The notes under the pieces were generated by a model. It searched no databases and was not told the DNA's origin. It was given only the letters and a program-made list of their open reading frames with translations. Shown piece after piece: positions 42,882-56,850 of a stretch of DNA of 64,000 bases; positions within the stretch are counted from its first letter, which is position 1, and each line of letters opens with the position of its first letter. This DNA comes from Methanorbis rubei. Lineage in GTDB: Archaea; Halobacteriota; Methanomicrobia; Methanomicrobiales; Methanocorpusculaceae. A program made the position numbers and the translations under genes. The stretch covers positions 124,001 to 188,000 of the forward strand of contig NZ_JAWDKB010000002.1 of assembly GCF_032714495.1 (NCBI RefSeq), in the 5' to 3' direction.

Positions 42882-44030
42882 ATGTTTGTGAGCAAAAAAA
42901 TATTATCTGTGTTTCTTGTTTGTGTCTTCCTCTCTCTTTTCTGCATAAGTGCAGGTTGTGTCTCTTCTCCTGAGGGTAGTGATGGTGCTGGCACTATCAC
43001 GGTGATTGATGCGTTCGGTCGCGAGGTTACTCTGCCTGACAATCCGCAAAAAATCGCGGTTTCCGGATCAGGTTCGATGCGGTACTTTGTGTATCTGGAT
43101 GTGAGCCTTGACCGCATTGTTGCGGTTGATTATCAGGACAGCGCCCTCTTCACTCGTCCAAACGAGTTGAGACCCTATCTGCTTGCAAACCCTGAGATCA
43201 AAAATCGTTCCGAGATTGGTTCTGCAATGGCTGTCGTTGACAATGAGAAACTTCTCGCATCAGGTGCAGAGGTTCTGTTTATGGGGGGCGCCAGCAGCTC
43301 AAACGTTGCGACCGCCAACATGATCACGGAAAAGACCGGTATTCCTGTGGTGATGTTTTATGTCGGCGACTATGTCACCAAAGGTGATCAGATCCGTGAG
43401 ACTTTGCGGATGCTCGGGAAAATTCTGCACACCGAGAAACGTGCTGATGAGATAGTCGCGTACTTTAACGGGGTTGAAGAGGATCTGAAAGGCCGCGTTG
43501 CGGACGTGCCGGACGCGGGAAAACCGACGGTGTATGTCTGTGGAATTTCCTACAACGGAGCTCACGGAGCTGACGGGACCGATCCGAATTATCTGGCGTT
43601 CACTCTGCTTGGTGCAAAAAATGTTGCCTCAGATATTGGCGAAGTGAGCCAGACAGGTTACGCAAAAGTTGCGAAGGAGCAGATTCTTGCCTGGGACCCT
43701 GACATGATCTTTGTGGATCTTGGAACGCTTACCGCAGCAGAAGGCGGGGCAGTTGCCGAGTTCGGCAGTGATGCAGCGTATCAGGGGCTGTCTGCGGTGA
43801 AGAACGGCGAGGTGTATGCGGTAAATCCTCACACGTCGATGAACGTGAATCATGAGACAAGCCTTGCAAACGCGTACTATATCGGAAAAATTCTGTACCC
43901 TGAGCAGTTTTCTGATATTGATCCATCAGCAAAGGCTGATGAGATTTACGAATTCGTTGTCGGTGCTCCGGTGTACTCACAGCTGAAAGCGAATGTGCAG
44001 AACATGTCGTATCAGAAAGTGGCGGTGTAG
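42882..44030 (+). CDS. Iron-chelate/cobalamin/metal-type ABC binding lipoprotein 1
   Basis: 382 residues, BtuF/FepB (PBP type III) family. Signal peptide with lipobox Ser-Ala-Gly-Cys (Cys26). 'VTLPDNPQKIAVSGSGSMRYFVYL' is the start of the first lobe, 'KEQILAWDPDMIFVDLGTLT' lies in the second and 'NGEVYAVNPHTSMN' is near the end. Delivers an iron complex, cobamide or metal chelate to the permease. First gene of a four-gene operon. About half identical to the next gene by eye, so the pair arose by tandem duplication and probably differs in ligand. Confidence 0.9.
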   Translation: MFVSKKILSVFLVCVFLSLFCISAGCVSSPEGSDGAGTITVIDAFGREVTLPDNPQKIAVSGSGSMRYFVYLDVSLDRIVAVDYQDSALFTRPNELRPYLLANPEIKNRSEIGSAMAVVDNEKLLASGAEVLFMGGASSSNVATANMITEKTGIPVVMFYVGDYVTKGDQIRETLRMLGKILHTEKRADEIVAYFNGVEEDLKGRVADVPDAGKPTVYVCGISYNGAHGADGTDPNYLAFTLLGAKNVASDIGEVSQTGYAKVAKEQILAWDPDMIFVDLGTLTAAEGGAVAEFGSDAAYQGLSAVKNGEVYAVNPHTSMNVNHETSLANAYYIGKILYPEQFSDIDPSAKADEIYEFVVGAPVYSQLKANVQNMSYQKVAV

Positions 44031-45173
44031 ATGCAGATGAAGCATCTTTTTTTCTTTTTGGTTCTTGTAGCGATACTTGCGGTCTGTTTTTCTGCGGGAT
44101 GTATCAGCAATCCTGATAATTCGGATGCCACCGTCACGGTGACTGATGCTGCCGGCCGCGAGGTTGTTATCCCTGCGGACCCGCAGAGAATTGCGGTGTC
44201 GGGTTCGGGATCCACGCGGCTTGTTGCCTATCTTGGCGCTCTTGACCGCGTTGTTGCGGTGGACAGTCAGGATGGGAAGACTACGTCTTCGACCGACCTC
44301 CGGCCTTACGGCCTTGCAAACCCGGGACTCCGCACTCTTCCGGTTCTCGGAACCGTGAAGGGCCAGGTCGATCCAGAGCTGCTTCTTGCGGCAAGCCCTG
44401 ATCTGATTCTGAAGAGTTCGAGCGGGGCTGATCTTGCGGGTGAGGCAGATGAACTGACGGCGAAGACCGGTATTCCGGTGGTGTTGTACTCGCAGTATGA
44501 TCCCGGGACAAAGCCTGAGGAGTTTGCAACAAACCTCAGGCTCTTAGGAAAAGTTCTCGGCAAGGAGCAGCGTGCAGAAGATATTCTTGACTACTTTGCA
44601 GAGATTGAGGGTGATCTGAACAACCGGACGAAGGATGTTTCGGATGCAGAAAAACCGCTGCTGTATGTGGGCGGCGTCGCATACTCGGGCTCGCATGGTT
44701 TTTATTCGACCCAGCCGAACTATCTGCCGTTCCGGTATCTTCATGCGGTGAATGCTGCTGCGGGAACCGACACCGGAGTCGGTACAACCGAGAATGCAAA
44801 GATCGCGAAGGAGCAGATTCTTGCCTGGGATCCTGACATTGTGTTTGTGGACCTTGCAACCCTGACCGCTGCGGGCGGAGGATCGATTGTGGAACTCTCG
44901 ACTGATCCTTCCTACAACTCGATGAAGGCTGTGCGTTCGGGCGAGGTGTATGCGGTTCTGCCCCATACGTCGATGGGTGCAAACTATGAAACAATTCTTG
45001 CGGACGCGTACTATATCGGAAAGGTTCTGTACCCTGACCGGTTCGCAGATATTGATCCGGCAGTAAAGGCTGATGAGATCTATGAATTCGTTGTCGGTGC
45101 GCCGGTCTACTCACAGCTGAATGCAAACGTCCGGAACCTGTCGTTCACGAAGCTGGAGATTCCTCTGTTGTGA
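44031..45173 (+). CDS. Iron-chelate/cobalamin/metal-type ABC binding lipoprotein 2
   Basis: 380 residues, paralogue of the preceding protein. Lipobox Ser-Ala-Gly-Cys (Cys24). Shares 'DPQRIAVSGSGSTRLVAYLG', 'AKIAKEQILAWDPDIVFVDLATLTAA' and the C-terminal 'DPAVKADEIYEFVVGAPVYSQLNANV'. It begins immediately after the stop of gene 1 and overlaps the permease by 4 nt, so all are translated from one message. Two binding proteins on one permease suggest two forms of the substrate. Confidence 0.9.
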   Translation: MQMKHLFFFLVLVAILAVCFSAGCISNPDNSDATVTVTDAAGREVVIPADPQRIAVSGSGSTRLVAYLGALDRVVAVDSQDGKTTSSTDLRPYGLANPGLRTLPVLGTVKGQVDPELLLAASPDLILKSSSGADLAGEADELTAKTGIPVVLYSQYDPGTKPEEFATNLRLLGKVLGKEQRAEDILDYFAEIEGDLNNRTKDVSDAEKPLLYVGGVAYSGSHGFYSTQPNYLPFRYLHAVNAAAGTDTGVGTTENAKIAKEQILAWDPDIVFVDLATLTAAGGGSIVELSTDPSYNSMKAVRSGEVYAVLPHTSMGANYETILADAYYIGKVLYPDRFADIDPAVKADEIYEFVVGAPVYSQLNANVRNLSFTKLEIPLL

Positions 45174-46246
45174 GAGCTGCCATGGACACTGAAACTTCGT
45201 CCGGACAGTACCGGGCATATGTCGCACGAAAAATTGCGCTGATTCTTTTTGGCGTTGCCTTCACCGTGATCATGTTTTTTGTGTCGGTGTCGGTTGGTGC
45301 GGTCTCGATTCCGATCCCTGATATTCTCGGAACACTGCTCGGCGGGCAGGGAACCGGACTGTTTGAGCGAATCATCTGGAACATCCGAATCCCGCAGGCG
45401 CTGACGGCAATCGTTGCGGGAGCCGGTCTTGCGATTGCGGGCGTTGCGATGCAGTCGATTCTCCGCAATCCTCTTGCATCTCCTTTTACGCTGGGCCTCT
45501 CAAACGCTGCGGCGTTTGGTGCTGCGATCGGTATTCTGCTGTTTGGTGCGGGAACGACCGGCAGCAGTATTGCTGATGCGGTGGTGGTGAACAATCCGTA
45601 TCTGACAACACTCTGTGCATTTATTTTCAGCATGCTGACGACGGTGATTATTCTTCTGATTGCCAGGATGCGGTCGGCGACTCCTGAGACGATGGTTCTT
45701 GCGGGCGTTGCGATAAGTTCGCTTTTTAGTGCGGGACTGATGGCGATTCAGTACTTTGTGGACGATACGAAGCTTGCGTCGATTGTGTTCTGGCAGTTTG
45801 GGGATGTGTCGCGTTCAAGCTGGACCGAGCTTGGGATTATGGCGGTGGTGGTTGCTGCGGCGTTTGGCTACATTTTGTTTAAACGCTGGGACTACAATGC
45901 GATCGATGCGGGTGATGAGACGGCACGCGGTCTCGGGGTGAATGTTGAGCGGACGCGGCTGGTTGGGATGATTGCAGCGTCAGTTATCAGTGCGGTTGTG
46001 GTGGCGTTTCTTGGGGTGATCGGTTTTGTGGGGCTGGTCTGTCCGCATATTGTGCGTCGGCTGATCGGTGATGATCATCGGTTTTTGATTCCGGGAAGTT
46101 TTGTCTGCGGTGCGGTTCTTCTGCTGGTGTCTGATACGGTTGCCCGGACAATTATTGCGCCGCATGTTCTGCCGGTTGCGGTGCTGACCGCGTTTCTTGG
46201 AGCTCCGGTGTTTCTGTATCTTATTATTCGGGGGCGGCGGATGTGA
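45170..46246 (+). CDS. FecCD-type ABC permease
   Basis: 358 residues, BtuC/FecCD family with about ten membrane helices. Conserved stretches: 'RIPQALTAIVAGAGLAIAGVAMQSILRNPLASPFTLGLSNAAAFGA', 'LGVNVERTRL' (coupling region) and 'FLGVIGFVGLVCPHIVRRLIGDDHRFLIPGS'. It begins with a GTG overlapping the TGA of the preceding gene; an ATG 12 bases later (45182) is possible. Works as a homodimer with the ATPase that follows. Confidence 0.93.
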   Translation: MRAAMDTETSSGQYRAYVARKIALILFGVAFTVIMFFVSVSVGAVSIPIPDILGTLLGGQGTGLFERIIWNIRIPQALTAIVAGAGLAIAGVAMQSILRNPLASPFTLGLSNAAAFGAAIGILLFGAGTTGSSIADAVVVNNPYLTTLCAFIFSMLTTVIILLIARMRSATPETMVLAGVAISSLFSAGLMAIQYFVDDTKLASIVFWQFGDVSRSSWTELGIMAVVVAAAFGYILFKRWDYNAIDAGDETARGLGVNVERTRLVGMIAASVISAVVVAFLGVIGFVGLVCPHIVRRLIGDDHRFLIPGSFVCGAVLLLVSDTVARTIIAPHVLPVAVLTAFLGAPVFLYLIIRGRRM

Positions 46247-47133
46247 AGGAGGAGTCTTTGGAGCATGGAACTCATGAGGGGCATCATGTGCATCCGCATT
46301 CGCATGTGGAGGGCTACATGCATACGCATGATCACTCGCATGACTGCCCGCACGAGCACCACGGAGCTGTGCCGGGCAGGGCTATCCTTCAGGTTGCGGG
46401 GGTGAGCTTTGAGTACCGGAGCGATCCGGTTCTTGCGGATGTTTCGATAGGGGTTGCACGCGGAGAGATTCTTGCGATTCTCGGACCGAATGGTGTGGGG
46501 AAGTCGACGCTTCTGAAGTGTATGAATCTGATTCTTACGCCAAAGACGGGCACGGTTCTTCTGGAGGAGAAGGATCTGATGAGAATGTCTGGCCCTGAGA
46601 TTGCGCGAAATGTGGGGTATGTTGCGCAGCGGAATGATTCTGCGAAGATGAGTGTGTTTGATACGGTGCTTCTCGGGCGAAAGCCGCATCTTGGGTTGCG
46701 GGTGAGTGAGCGGGATTATGCGATTGTTGAGCGGGCGCTGTCCCGTCTTGGTTTGTCGGAGATGCAGCTCCGCTCTATTGATGAGCTGTCGGGGGGTGAG
46801 CTTCAGCGGGTGTGTATCTGTCGTGCGATTGTGCAGGAGCCGTCTGTTCTTCTGCTGGATGAGCCGACGTCGGCTCTGGATCTGTGTCGGCAGATGGCTA
46901 TTCTCGGGGTCATCCGGGATGTGGTGGATCATCATAATGTGGCAACTGTTATGACGATGCATGATCTGAATCTTGCGTTGCGGTTTGCGGACCGGTTTTT
47001 GTTTATGAAGGATGGTATGGTGTATGCGGCGTGCGACCGGTCCGGTGTGACTGCTGATGTGATTGAGGCGGTGTATGGTATTGCGGTGGATATTGTGATG
47101 CATAAGGGTCTGCCGATGGTCGTTCCGCGGTAA
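46243..47133 (+). CDS. ABC transporter ATPase with His-rich N-terminus
   Basis: 296 residues. Walker A GPNGVGKST (residues 81-89), Q-loop 'YVAQRND', signature 'LSGGELQRV', Walker B 'VLLLDEPTSALD' and H-loop 'MTMHDLN' are all intact. Residues 8-40 contain 14 His and one Cys, absent from ordinary FecE/BtuD ATPases. Such tracts bind Ni2+, Co2+ or Zn2+ and are known from nickel chaperones and CbiX/HypB-type proteins. This points to transition-metal uptake (perhaps nickel or cobalt chelates), or metal sensing by the importer. GTG start overlapping the permease stop by 4 nt. Confidence 0.94.
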   Translation: MKEESLEHGTHEGHHVHPHSHVEGYMHTHDHSHDCPHEHHGAVPGRAILQVAGVSFEYRSDPVLADVSIGVARGEILAILGPNGVGKSTLLKCMNLILTPKTGTVLLEEKDLMRMSGPEIARNVGYVAQRNDSAKMSVFDTVLLGRKPHLGLRVSERDYAIVERALSRLGLSEMQLRSIDELSGGELQRVCICRAIVQEPSVLLLDEPTSALDLCRQMAILGVIRDVVDHHNVATVMTMHDLNLALRFADRFLFMKDGMVYAACDRSGVTADVIEAVYGIAVDIVMHKGLPMVVPR

Positions 47134-47172: not shown

Positions 47173-48468
47173 TGTACTGTACTTCAAACAGTACTTCGCT
47201 AATTATTCGCTTCATCATTCCATCCATCCCGAATGTATATCTCTGTTATTGGTTGGAATCTCTCCCTTATCGCATCCCAAACCATTATTTTAAATTGTTG
47301 AAATCTGAACTTATTTTCCTCCACAATCACTCTATTATCCCTAACTGAAAAATATCTTCTTTGAATTACCACCCAAACGTTTTTCAGAACAAATGCAATA
47401 AGTGCATAAAAATATCTCAGGGTTGGTGATTTTGTGGTGGTTTTTATTTTAACCTGATTCCTCAATCTATACGATGCTTCAATAGAAAATCTCGAATAAT
47501 ATGTTTTCCTAATTTTTCTTGGGCTACCTCTGAATTTGAAGACAACAAATGTTTTTACATCTATTTTGTCTTTATTTTAATCAACTCTTCCCCTCCTCAC
47601 ATCTATTGCAATGATTGTCTCAACACGTTTTTTTCTTTTTCCAATTGAATATGGTGTAAATCCAGGGACTTCCCGATTCAGAAGAGCAACCATTTGTTTA
47701 CTTTGCTTTTTTACCGGAACAATATATGGAATTTGTTCTGATTGAAGATAAGAAAAAACATCCACTGCATAAAATCCCCTATCCAGACACAGCACTTCCA
47801 CCTTAAGAAAATGCTCTCTTAAGACCTGAATACATTTTTTTACCAAATCAACTGTTTTCTCCCCAACTTTGACAGGAAAGACGGCAAATGTTACGCGCTC
47901 TCCTCGTACCATGCTGTAGAGGGAGACGTAGGTATAAAATTTCTTTGTCGATTTCTTTTTCTGGCCCAGGATTATGTAGTCTTTGTTCTGTTCGTCTATT
48001 TTTCCGTAGTAAGGATCATTGGTGAGATCAATAGCAAACTGATATTTTCGGCCAGGGATGAGAAGGAGTGAGCAGGAATGAAAGAGTATCCAATGATTGA
48101 GAGATTCGAGGGAAAACAAAGATAGTTTGGAAAGATGATGCCTCAGCGAGGTCTCACAGGGGCAGGTTTGTACAACAGTTCCAAGTGAATGTAAAGACAG
48201 ACATTGAGATGCAGTTCCCACAGCAGCTGTCAAGATGGTGGTTTGATCCAAGGAACCTTGGATCGACAGATACAGATAACGATCCAAAGATGAAACAACA
48301 AGTCTACTGCAATCGATTGAACGAAGAACTATTTTTCTATTAGATGAGGAGGAAGCCCAATTTACCATGAAAAAATCACGGGGGAAGTATAAATATGTTC
48401 TGATTTGTGAGGGGGGGCAAAAAATGGGGCGGGGAAAATTAGTGAAGTACTGTTTGAAGTACAGTACA
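47173..48468 (-). mobile_element. Insertion sequence with 32-bp terminal inverted repeats, transposase broken
   Basis: The ends at 47173-47204 and 48437-48468 are inverted repeats of 32 bp with one mismatch, starting TGTACTGTACTTCAAACAG. The 1296-bp unit contains one transposase frame on the minus strand. No clean target-site duplication is visible: the left flank is a CTA/ACT microsatellite and the right flank begins GTGTACTA. IS4-superfamily, ISH3-like, by its transposase. Confidence 0.88.
47199..48368 (-). pseudogene. DDE transposase (ISH3/IS4-like) with in-frame stop
   Basis: One continuous frame of 389 codons interrupted by a single TAA at 47577-47579 (codon 264). The upstream part has the first Asp in 'QFAIDLTNDPYYGK' and the second in 'VEVLCLDRGFYAVDVFSYL'. 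The downstream part, in the same frame, has the late Glu motif 'YYSRFSIEASYRLRNQVKI'. The catalytic triad is thus complete but split by one nonsense codon, so the copy is probably dead; a recent event, because no frameshift accompanies it. The start is taken at 48368 and is uncertain. Confidence 0.85.
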
Positions 48469-53766: not shown

Positions 53767-54573
53767 ATGAGACAGATAGCCCTCTATGGCAAGGGAGGTA
53801 TCGGAAAATCCACCACATCCGCAAACCTTTCGGCTGCGTTTGCGGAGAAGGGTCTGGACGTCATGCAGATCGGATGCGATCCCAAACATGACAGCACCAG
53901 AATGCTGATGCACGGCCGCTGGATTCCTACCGTACTCGAACAGATGTACGAGCGAAAGGATCTTGAGATGGACGACGTCATCTTCACCGGTTTTGGCGGA
54001 GTGCGGTGCGTGGAGGCAGGAGGGCCTGAGCCCGGTATCGGCTGTGCCGGCCGCGGCATCATTGCAACGTTTCAGCTGCTCGAAAAAATGAAAGCCCTGC
54101 ACGGAGACGTGGTGGTCTACGATGTGCTGGGCGATGTCGTCTGCGGAGGATTTGCAATGCCGATGCGTGATGGCTATGCACAGGAGGTCTATCTGGTAAC
54201 GAGCGGTGAACTAATGAGTCTGTATGCGGCAAACAATATCTGCAAGGCAATTGCCCGCCTTTCACAACGAAGCACCGCAAGATGCCGGCTTGGCGGCGTC
54301 ATCTGCAACTCGAAAAATATGGATAATGAACGAGAGCTTGTCGCCGAATTTGCGAAGCGGATCGGATCAAAAATGGTTGAGTTTGTTCCCCGCGACAAAG
54401 CAGTTCAGGCTGCCGAAGTCAACCAGATGACCGTGATTGAACATGCCCCGACATCGCCGCAGGCAGATGTCTACCGCAGACTTGCCGGAACCATTCTCGC
54501 AAACGATGACTTACGTATCCCCACAGCCCTCGATCTTGATGAACTGGAAAAACTTGCCAGGGCATATCTATGA
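53767..54573 (+). CDS. Nitrogenase-reductase-like protein (NifH/BchL/CfbC superfamily)
   Basis: 268 residues. P-loop 'GKGGIGKST' (residues 8-16), switch I 'CDPKHDSTR', and '[22 protein letters not shown]' followed by '[14 protein letters not shown]'. Cys93 and Cys126 align with the two NifH cysteines that bridge the 4Fe-4S cluster between subunits, so ATP-driven electron donation is expected. '[14 protein letters not shown]' is closer to BchL/CfbC-type proteins than to true NifH. First gene of a three-gene operon with two different NifD/K-like subunits. Could be CfbC (F430 synthesis), but that system has a single partner gene; an uncharacterised group is more likely. Proposed label only: nflH. 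Confidence 0.88.
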
Positions 54574-54580
54574 ATCACGA

Positions 54581-55600
54581 ATGGCAGGATGCACCTTAAC
54601 CGGTGCCCTGTCTGTCGCCTGTTTTATTCCGGGAGCAGTAGCTGTCGTCCATGCTCCCGAGGGCTGCGTGCACCAGACCTTTTCGATGCTGCATGCGATG
54701 ATGAATGACTGCGATGTGTCCCAAATTCCTGAGATCATCGTTTCAGGAATCGGGGACCGTGAGGTGATCTTCGGCGGCGAGGACTGCCTGACCGCAGCCC
54801 TCGACCGTGCGGCGGCACTGAACCCTGATCTGATTTTTGTTGTGACCTCCTGCGTGCCGGAGACGATCGGTGATGACTGCGGTGCGGTCTGCAGCCGCCA
54901 TCCGTCTGCTGACAAAATAATTTATGTGCCGACATCCGGATTTCTTGGAGGAAGTGCCAAGGACGGGGAGAATGCTGTTCTCACTGCTCTTGCATCATGC
55001 GTTCCGCTCTCCCAAGCGGTTCCGGGAACGGTTGCCCTTATCGGCGAAAAAAATCTTGAGTCTGAAGCTGATCAGAATTATGCCGAGGTCGAACGCCTGC
55101 TTGCCCGTCTCGGCCTTCGGGTGACGGTCAGGTTCTGTCGGGGATGTGATGCTGCGACCCTTATGCATCTTGGAACTGCGGAGTGTTTTATTCTGCGTGA
55201 TGACCGATGCCGGCCCGCGGCCGAAGCGATTGGTGAGCGGTTCAAACGACCGGTCATCCCTGAGTTTCCCGGCGGACTTTCCGGCTGCATTGATTTTTTG
55301 AAAAATGTTGGCCATGCATGCAGCATCCCTGAAGAAAAAATTGCGTCAGCAGTGCAGGATGAACTTCTGTATCAGGATCAGATGCTGAAAAAATTTTCAG
55401 GACTCACCAAAAAAACAATCTGTCTTGGTGCGGAACCGTTTGCCGGAACGTCTGCGGTTGCCCGCGAGGCGATGGAGAGGCTCTCGATGCAGGAGAGCGA
55501 GTCCGGGTTTCCCGTCAAACTGCCGTTTTATCTTCCGGTTGGTGCTGCTGGTGTTGAGAAGATGCTCTATCTCTGGCGTCGGGCGGTGAACAATGGCTGA
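54581..55600 (+). CDS. Nitrogenase component-1-like protein, alpha-type (NifD/NifE-like)
   Basis: 339 residues from the ATG at 54581, 7 bp after the NifH-like stop; an in-frame extension back to 54437 lies inside that gene. Cys4 ('MAGCTLTGA'), Cys29 ('VVHAPEGCVHQTF') and Cys91 ('VVTSCVPETIGDDC') have the spacing of the three P-cluster ligands of NifD. 'GIGDREVIFGGEDCLTAALD' matches the conserved 'E..VFGG...L' element. The protein is much shorter than NifD (~480), and I cannot find the late His that binds FeMo-co, so the active site must differ. Partner of the next gene, which it overlaps by 8 nt. Confidence 0.82.
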   Translation: MAGCTLTGALSVACFIPGAVAVVHAPEGCVHQTFSMLHAMMNDCDVSQIPEIIVSGIGDREVIFGGEDCLTAALDRAAALNPDLIFVVTSCVPETIGDDCGAVCSRHPSADKIIYVPTSGFLGGSAKDGENAVLTALASCVPLSQAVPGTVALIGEKNLESEADQNYAEVERLLARLGLRVTVRFCRGCDAATLMHLGTAECFILRDDRCRPAAEAIGERFKRPVIPEFPGGLSGCIDFLKNVGHACSIPEEKIASAVQDELLYQDQMLKKFSGLTKKTICLGAEPFAGTSAVAREAMERLSMQESESGFPVKLPFYLPVGAAGVEKMLYLWRRAVNNG

Positions 55601-56735
55601 CGGAGGATGCACCAATCCGGTCTGGCCGTGTGCAATGACCGGTGCTGCGGCAACTCTTGCCGGTTTTCCTGATCTCTGCGTGATCATTCACGGCTCGTCC
55701 GGCTGCTACTACTATCCGAAGTCGCTGCTGAAGGTTCCCTTGTTCAGCACCTATCTGCTGGAGTCAGAGATTGTATTCGGCACCATTGACCGGCTGCATG
55801 AGGTGGTGTCTGAGGTCGCTGCAACCGGCAGGCCGGTTGCGGTGGTGAACACCTGTGTTCCGGCACTGACCGGTGAAGATCTGAAGACTGCATTCGCCAG
55901 CGGCTCGGCAATTTTTGTTGACGCCCCGGGCTTCTCAGGAAATGTTGAAGCAGGAGCTGCAAAAGCGTTCGCCGCTCTTGCTCCCTCCTGCTCTACAGAG
56001 CGGCCAGGCGTGAACATCGACGGCATCAATCTGCTGGATATTTTCTGGCGCGGCAATCTGCATGAGACCGAGCGTCTGCTTGGATTGCTGAAAATTCCAG
56101 TCACGGTGCGTTTCTGCCGTGACAGTTATGCAAATCTCCGTGCCGGAGCATCCCTCTTCACGGTCTCTGCCAACTCTTCGTACGCTTCCGGTGTCGGGGA
56201 CAATCTTGGCAGCATGCTGTTTTTAGACATTCCGGATACTGTTGCAAAACTTCAGGAACAGTATCCTGATGCTGACACGGACGCAGTCCTCACTGAGTGG
56301 GCACGTGCTGAGGATCAGATATACTACTCCTGTGACAAGTATCTGCGAAAATACAATCCTCCGGTCGTGGCGGTTGCTGCGCAGGAAAGCTACGCGGCCT
56401 TTGCCAAGACTATGATGGAGCGCTACTTCGGATCCGACGTCCCGGTCGTGTTTGCACGTGACCAAGGTTTGGGCCGTGTTCCCTGTTCCGTGAACTCTGT
56501 AGAGATCAACACCGCTGTTGCGTCAGCTGAGCCTGATCTGATTCTCGGCTCAACGTTTGAAGCAGCCGCCTGCAGGACAGCGGCATTCTTCGGAATCACC
56601 CCGCCTGACCGCAGCCGCATCTCAATTGCGGCCCGCCCTCTTGCAGGAGTTGAGGGCGGTCTTAAACTGACGGAAGGGGCACTGAATGCCCTGATGAATA
56701 TGCATGCGAATTTAAAACGCGAATCCCGCGAATAA
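55593..56735 (+). CDS. Nitrogenase component-1-like protein, beta-type (NifK/NifN-like)
   Basis: 380 residues. Cys6 ('DGGCTNPVWPC'), Cys38 ('IHGSSGCYYYP') and Cys88 ('VVNTCVPALTGED') match the P-cluster ligand pattern; 'ESEIVFGTIDRLHEVV' is the same 'VFGG' element as in its partner. Extra cysteines 13 and 29 could matter. The last residues (KRESRE and the stop) are encoded by the start of repeat element C1, so the native C-terminus may have been changed. With the previous gene it should form a heterotetramer that receives electrons from the NifH-like protein. Substrate unknown. Confidence 0.82.
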   Translation: MADGGCTNPVWPCAMTGAAATLAGFPDLCVIIHGSSGCYYYPKSLLKVPLFSTYLLESEIVFGTIDRLHEVVSEVAATGRPVAVVNTCVPALTGEDLKTAFASGSAIFVDAPGFSGNVEAGAAKAFAALAPSCSTERPGVNIDGINLLDIFWRGNLHETERLLGLLKIPVTVRFCRDSYANLRAGASLFTVSANSSYASGVGDNLGSMLFLDIPDTVAKLQEQYPDADTDAVLTEWARAEDQIYYSCDKYLRKYNPPVVAVAAQESYAAFAKTMMERYFGSDVPVVFARDQGLGRVPCSVNSVEINTAVASAEPDLILGSTFEAAACRTAAFFGITPPDRSRISIAARPLAGVEGGLKLTEGALNALMNMHANLKRESRE

Positions 56736-56850
56736 AAAAATCGCCAATGGCGATTTTTGAGAAATTACTAAAATTGCTTATTTTTATGCACTCCTCTCAA
56801 TCCAGAGAAACACTAAATATTTTTTAATTTCGCCATTCGCATTTACGAAT
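56718..56850. repeat. Type C palindromic element, copy C1
   Basis: Begins with CGCGAATCCCGCGAATAAAA, overlapping the last codons and stop of the preceding gene, then the hairpin AAAAATCGCC-AAT-GGCGATTTTT at 56736-56758. A degraded right arm lies near 56817-56850 (TTTTTAATTTCGCCATTCGC). The hairpin with its T-run could end the nitrogenase-like message. Confidence 0.75.

Follow-up and report, generated by a model that had tools for sequence, protein, structure and literature searches.

A near-universal nitrogenase-like reductase of Methanomicrobiales whose Fe-protein probably also serves F430 synthesis

Three adjacent genes of Methanorbis rubei, here called H, D and K, encode a nitrogenase-like reductase, a class assignment that is well supported, and orthologs of D and K are found in almost every Methanomicrobiales genome sampled. 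The best explanation taken as a whole, to which we give an even chance, is that H-D-K would be a second nitrogenase-like, ATP-driven reductase of this order, that H is the CfbC of the genome and that the substrate of DK is a tetrapyrrole. The initial annotation of these genes is right in outline with corrections, and the reading that it gave holds for D and K and is wrong for H.

The window analysed is a stretch of 64,000 nucleotides from a genome of 1.83 Mb (G000; 15 contigs, 96% complete). All three genes lie on the + strand at the coordinates first annotated. H (53767..54573) encodes a NifH-type ATP-dependent reductase of 268 aa, by elimination also the probable CfbC of the genome, D (54581..55600) an alpha-type (NifD/NifE-side) nitrogenase component-1 protein of 339 aa, and K (55593..56735) a beta-type nitrogenase component-1 protein of 380 aa. 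PF00142 (Fer4_NifH) matches H with 361 bits, and PF00148 (Oxidored_nitro) matches D with 155 bits and K with 103 bits. The 8-nt overlap of D and K reported earlier is exact (55593 to 55600). The 7-bp gap between H and D holds if D starts at the ATG at 54581, which is the MAGCTL start in several Methanocorpusculum orthologs, but not with the in-frame ATG at 54539, which occupies the same position as ortholog starts in other families and gives a protein of 353 aa and a 35-nt overlap with H. Immediately 3' of the K stop codon, a perfect 10-bp inverted repeat, AAAAATCGCC-AAT-GGCGATTTTT (56736..56758, + strand), can be read directly in the DNA and is a possible terminator of the HDK unit.

The trio is preceded by genes for TrkH, desulfoferrodoxin and a flavodiiron-type protein, called FprA on the basis of its sequence, and followed by an acetate transporter gene. 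Gene neighbourhoods were compared with a codon-usage gene caller (clustering of raw ORFs is noisy in GC-rich genomes); TrkH and FprA are the usual neighbours of the trio, and in most genomes its own neighbours include no tetrapyrrole gene. The window also contains, on the same strand and 6.6 kb upstream of the trio, genes for two BtuF-type binding proteins, a BtuC-type permease and an ATPase (43002-47133), all under the equivalog cut-offs. A transposase-like ORF recognised by eye (47577-48368, - strand) separates these transporter genes from the FprA-TrkH-trio block. In G015 and G017 the trio is parted from TrkH by inserted genes for an Opp/Nik-type ABC transporter and a SAM methyltransferase (L083 5472-9641, L084 11446-17799); this transporter resembled a nickel importer but was set aside, as oligopeptide and nickel models match it alike and all below cut-off.

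The view of the trio as a heteromeric nitrogenase-like reductase other than nitrogenase is supported, with a full set of P-cluster cysteines and no FeMo-co ligands. C4, C29 and C91 of D, whose spacing had been recognised as P-cluster-type, align with NifD C62, C88 and C154. The cysteines first named in K were C6, C38 and C88; C38 and C88 do align with NifK C95 and C153, but the counterpart of NifK C70 is C13, and C6 is a further cysteine outside this set, nearly invariant (77/78). The six P-cluster-aligned cysteines occur in every full-length ortholog in the alignment of 80 loci (65-69 D and 78-80 K sequences with the position filled). The FeMo-co ligands NifD C275 and H442 are absent in all 12 trio D proteins aligned, and in D none of NifD C275, H442, H195 and R96 is matched by a conserved residue. 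The VFGG element ascribed to both proteins is present in D as VIFGG, but K has VFGT. AlphaFold models of D and K folded as single chains (pLDDT 90 and 91) match nitrogenase-family folds, the D model resembling NifD, NifE and BchB and the K model being closest to BchB (TM 0.78-0.82); the best sequence match of D among solved structures is NifE (155 bits). With its NifH-type reductase and PF00148 component, the trio falls within the broad definition of nitrogenase-like (Group IV) systems.

Known members of this class were each compared with the trio. D and K were rejected as CfbD (35.2 and 38.5 bits vs a cut-off of 268.4), as first proposed, as NifEN (63 and 39 bits vs 505 for NifE, 15 and 20 bits vs 327 for NifN) and as DPOR or COR (BchN/B/Y/Z models, best 61 bits vs 490 for BchB). 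CfbCD and the trio have nitrogenase-like two-component chemistry in common, and H passes the CfbC model, whereas CfbD forms a homodimer and keeps only two of the three alpha-type cysteines, and the trio has two different subunits with three each. DPOR (BchLNB) and COR (BchXYZ) are, like the trio, two-component ATP-driven reductases without FeMo-co. DPOR has one [4Fe-4S] cluster with three Cys and one Asp as ligands, in contrast to the six Cys of the trio. The Asp ligand of the DPOR cluster has been described (PMC3464626). MarHDK and IsrHDK share the H, D, K layout and a nitrogenase-like catalytic component with the trio; they have a radical SAM partner, and the trio was rejected as a member of either because its operon has no radical SAM B gene, and it also lacks the C275 ligand. 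The M. labreanum pair Mlab_1040/1039 (PMC3464626), from the same genus, has an H-D-K layout like the trio, but sets of this type, seen in G015 and G012, lie beside an ABC transporter and have two and one conserved cysteines.

Several other nitrogenase-like sets were observed during this comparison. The second nifH/D/K-like set of G015 (L212 9429-15554), which adjoins a BtuFCD-type ABC transporter and is also present on contig C4 of G012, is probably the Mlab_1039/1040 pair (PMC3464626). A single component-1 family of about 390-450 aa (L043, L045, L046, L044, L042, L047, L048, L103, L182) keeps a NifD C275-type cysteine and forms its own clade in the tree (100/99); it is found beside cfbBDEA in G033 (L141), beside NifH and cobalamin-type genes in G275 (L142) and near MoaD/MoaE-like genes in G118 and G029 (L131, L132). 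One contig of G181 (C41, L213) carries several NifH/D/K-like sets, a BtuCD-type transporter and repeated SAM methyltransferases.

The identity of H bears directly on F430 synthesis. The NCBI F430_CfbC model gives H 425.1 bits, above its cut-off of 402 and comparable to the 422 bits of the CfbC encoded beside cfbD in a Methanosarcina-type genome. H is the one PF00142 match in the 96% complete assembly and the sole strong NifH in most relatives, including the single-contig genomes G017, G025, G028, G030, G034 and G037. Another contig of the same genome (contig 7) carries the row cfbA-cfbE-cfbD-cfbB with a true CfbD (487.9 bits), and no cfbC was found in that cluster. McrA was found in this genome, so F430 is needed there, and since F430 synthesis needs CfbC and H is the sole candidate, H is probably the CfbC of the genome, common to CfbD and DK; that the reductase is shared by these two partners we hold with good confidence. 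Phylogenetically H belongs to a clade of its own, nearer NifH (85/74) than the CfbC proteins encoded beside cfbD; a tree forced to join the trio H clade with CfbC was not rejected (AU p 0.20). The Fe-protein cysteines C93 and C126, the two cluster cysteines credited to the reductase at the outset, are invariant in 20 orthologs. The separation of the trio from CfbCD drawn by the initial annotation thus stands for D and K, which fall below the CfbD cut-off, and fails for H, the one NifH found in the genome and a match to the CfbC model above its cut-off. Similarly, a separate cfbC/cfbD pair was found in the genome as far as cfbD, in the cfbA-E-D-B cluster, and not for another cfbC; of the possibility that the trio is itself CfbCD in a genome with no other such pair, the half concerning a second cfbC came true, while D and K are not CfbD.

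The trio is no oddity of one lineage but is near-universal in Methanomicrobiales. Among 295 genomes of the phylum, 55 in the order and 240 others, orthologs of D (at least 373 bits) and of K (at least 393 bits) are each present in 54 of the 55 and in none of the 240, whose top scores are 184 bits for D and 112 bits for K. This recurrence is far beyond chance. The best 80 K matches among named genomes carry labels of Methanomicrobiales or its families and genera, except four labelled only 'Euryarchaeota archaeon', the closest being Methanocalculaceae, Methanorbis and Methanocorpusculum records. H, D and K lie on one strand at 65 of 80 named loci; the remainder are truncated loci or, as in Methanoculleus, loci with K set apart. 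No relatives of D were found in viral contigs and none of K in phages.

The one exception in the order is instructive. In G175 (99% complete) H keeps its usual position behind FprA, desulfoferrodoxin and TrkH, but D and K are missing between H and a small gene that elsewhere comes after K. This genome has cfbD as its sole component-1 gene and also encodes McrA and a NifB homologue. H is thus not dependent on DK, which fits a role in serving CfbD, and in this lineage at least methanogenesis does without DK. In four other genomes (G029, G118, G193, G264) a distance of 9-14 kb separates the trio from cfbAEDB, and in the rest the two are far apart or on different contigs.

The closest relative of DK is a system with a NifH-D fusion protein and a separate K. 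In the trees D is sister to the D part of the fusion (100/99) and K groups with the partner K of the fusion (90/70), its probable sister. The 12 fusion loci come from 11 genomes of a Methanosarcinales-type family (f8) and from Methanomicrobiales G226, which carries both the fusion system and the trio, so that the two are not interchangeable. CbiZ (adenosylcobinamide amidohydrolase) is encoded near seven of the 12 loci (L308, L309, L310, L311, L314, L315, L317), and several also have a FecCD-type transporter, the chelatase CbiK or CobN nearby. Both systems are without FeMo-co ligands; the fusion system differs from the trio in having H and D fused, often with corrinoid and transport genes nearby, and in its K, where Asp and Pro replace two of the three beta cysteines that trio K keeps, so the sister chemistry may differ. 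At L210 (582-14855, G150) an H-D fusion and K adjoin an Opp/Nik-type transporter and an apparent MCR operon. Such fusions were mentioned by Dos Santos and others and left unanalysed (PMC3464626).

From these observations a mechanism may be proposed. H would act as a homodimer with one [4Fe-4S] cluster, passing low-potential electrons to a D-K heteromer at the cost of ATP hydrolysis, and a P-cluster-type Fe-S centre would lie between C4, C29 and C91 of D and C13, C38 and C88 of K. Because D has none of the FeMo-cofactor-binding residues (cysteine, histidine and arginine), the substrate would probably bind directly in the DK cavity, as in DPOR, COR and CfbD. H would also feed CfbD in F430 synthesis. 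A tetrapyrrole, which the initial annotation had named among possible substrates, is plausible from gene contexts of an indirect kind, given the corrinoid genes near the fusion loci and the closeness of the trio to cfbAEDB in four genomes, and we think it somewhat favoured as the substrate of DK, presumably in the form of an F430-related nickel porphinoid or a corrinoid. It should be added that tetrapyrrole genes adjoin the sister system and not the trio itself. The fullest version, in which one Fe-protein (CfbC) drives both CfbD and DK, and DK is an undescribed heteromer with P-cluster cysteines and no FeMo-co site that carries out a new tetrapyrrole reduction, is put forward more tentatively, at a little under an even chance.

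A substrate other than a tetrapyrrole, such as one in which a C-S, C-O or C=C bond is reduced, is possible if rather doubtful, whether or not H is shared. Thioethers and sulfonates are the substrates of the related Group IV systems MarHDK and IsrHDK (PMC12552129, PMC11423573), and most genomes have no tetrapyrrole gene beside the trio; however, Mar and Isr work with a radical SAM B protein and no such gene adjoins the trio, the C275 position is lost in D, and the sister system lies among corrinoid genes. The same missing ligand speaks against the idea that DK is a NifEN-like scaffold or maturase for a complex Fe-S cluster, such as one for the MCR activation complex, which we regard as unlikely. 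Its appeal lies in the match of D to NifE among solved structures, in the presence of NifB in the genome and in the [8Fe-9S-C]-type clusters of the MCR activation complex (PMC12176620), yet MCR is made without DK in other methanogen orders, and G175 without DK still has McrA and the NifB homologue.

G175 also weighs against DK being an accessory to CfbD at the reductase step of F430 synthesis, with no substrate of its own, since it has cfbD, H and McrA without DK. A gene unit with a shared reductase, the four genomes with the trio near cfbAEDB and the order-wide co-occurrence would suit such a role, which is nevertheless very unlikely, because no DK ortholog accompanies cfbC and cfbD in Methanosarcina- and Methanocella-type genomes and the reduced product is formed by CfbCD on its own (PMC7242693). 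That the trio is a nitrogenase fixing N2 can practically be dismissed despite the NifH and NifDK homology and the P-cluster cysteines: the NifD residues listed above are unconserved in D, the only component-1 genes in the genome are D, K and cfbD, with no nifE or nifN, and the diazotrophic relatives G004, G032, G035 and G039 have a separate full NifHDKEN-type set.

In the mainly open-access literature searched, no description was found of a Methanomicrobiales-wide HDK trio or of CfbC with a second catalytic partner. If the preferred reading, a second reductase sharing H with CfbD, is true, an order of methanogens would have a near-universal, unstudied nitrogenase-family enzyme whose electron donor is common to F430 synthesis, and the cfbC of Methanomicrobiales, missing from the cfb clusters examined, would be located. 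G175, in which only D and K were lost, offers a natural comparison for finding the product of DK. The trio would also add to the family a heteromeric member with P-cluster ligands and without a site for an active-site metal cofactor, a combination that bears on the evolution of nitrogenase from open-cavity reductases.
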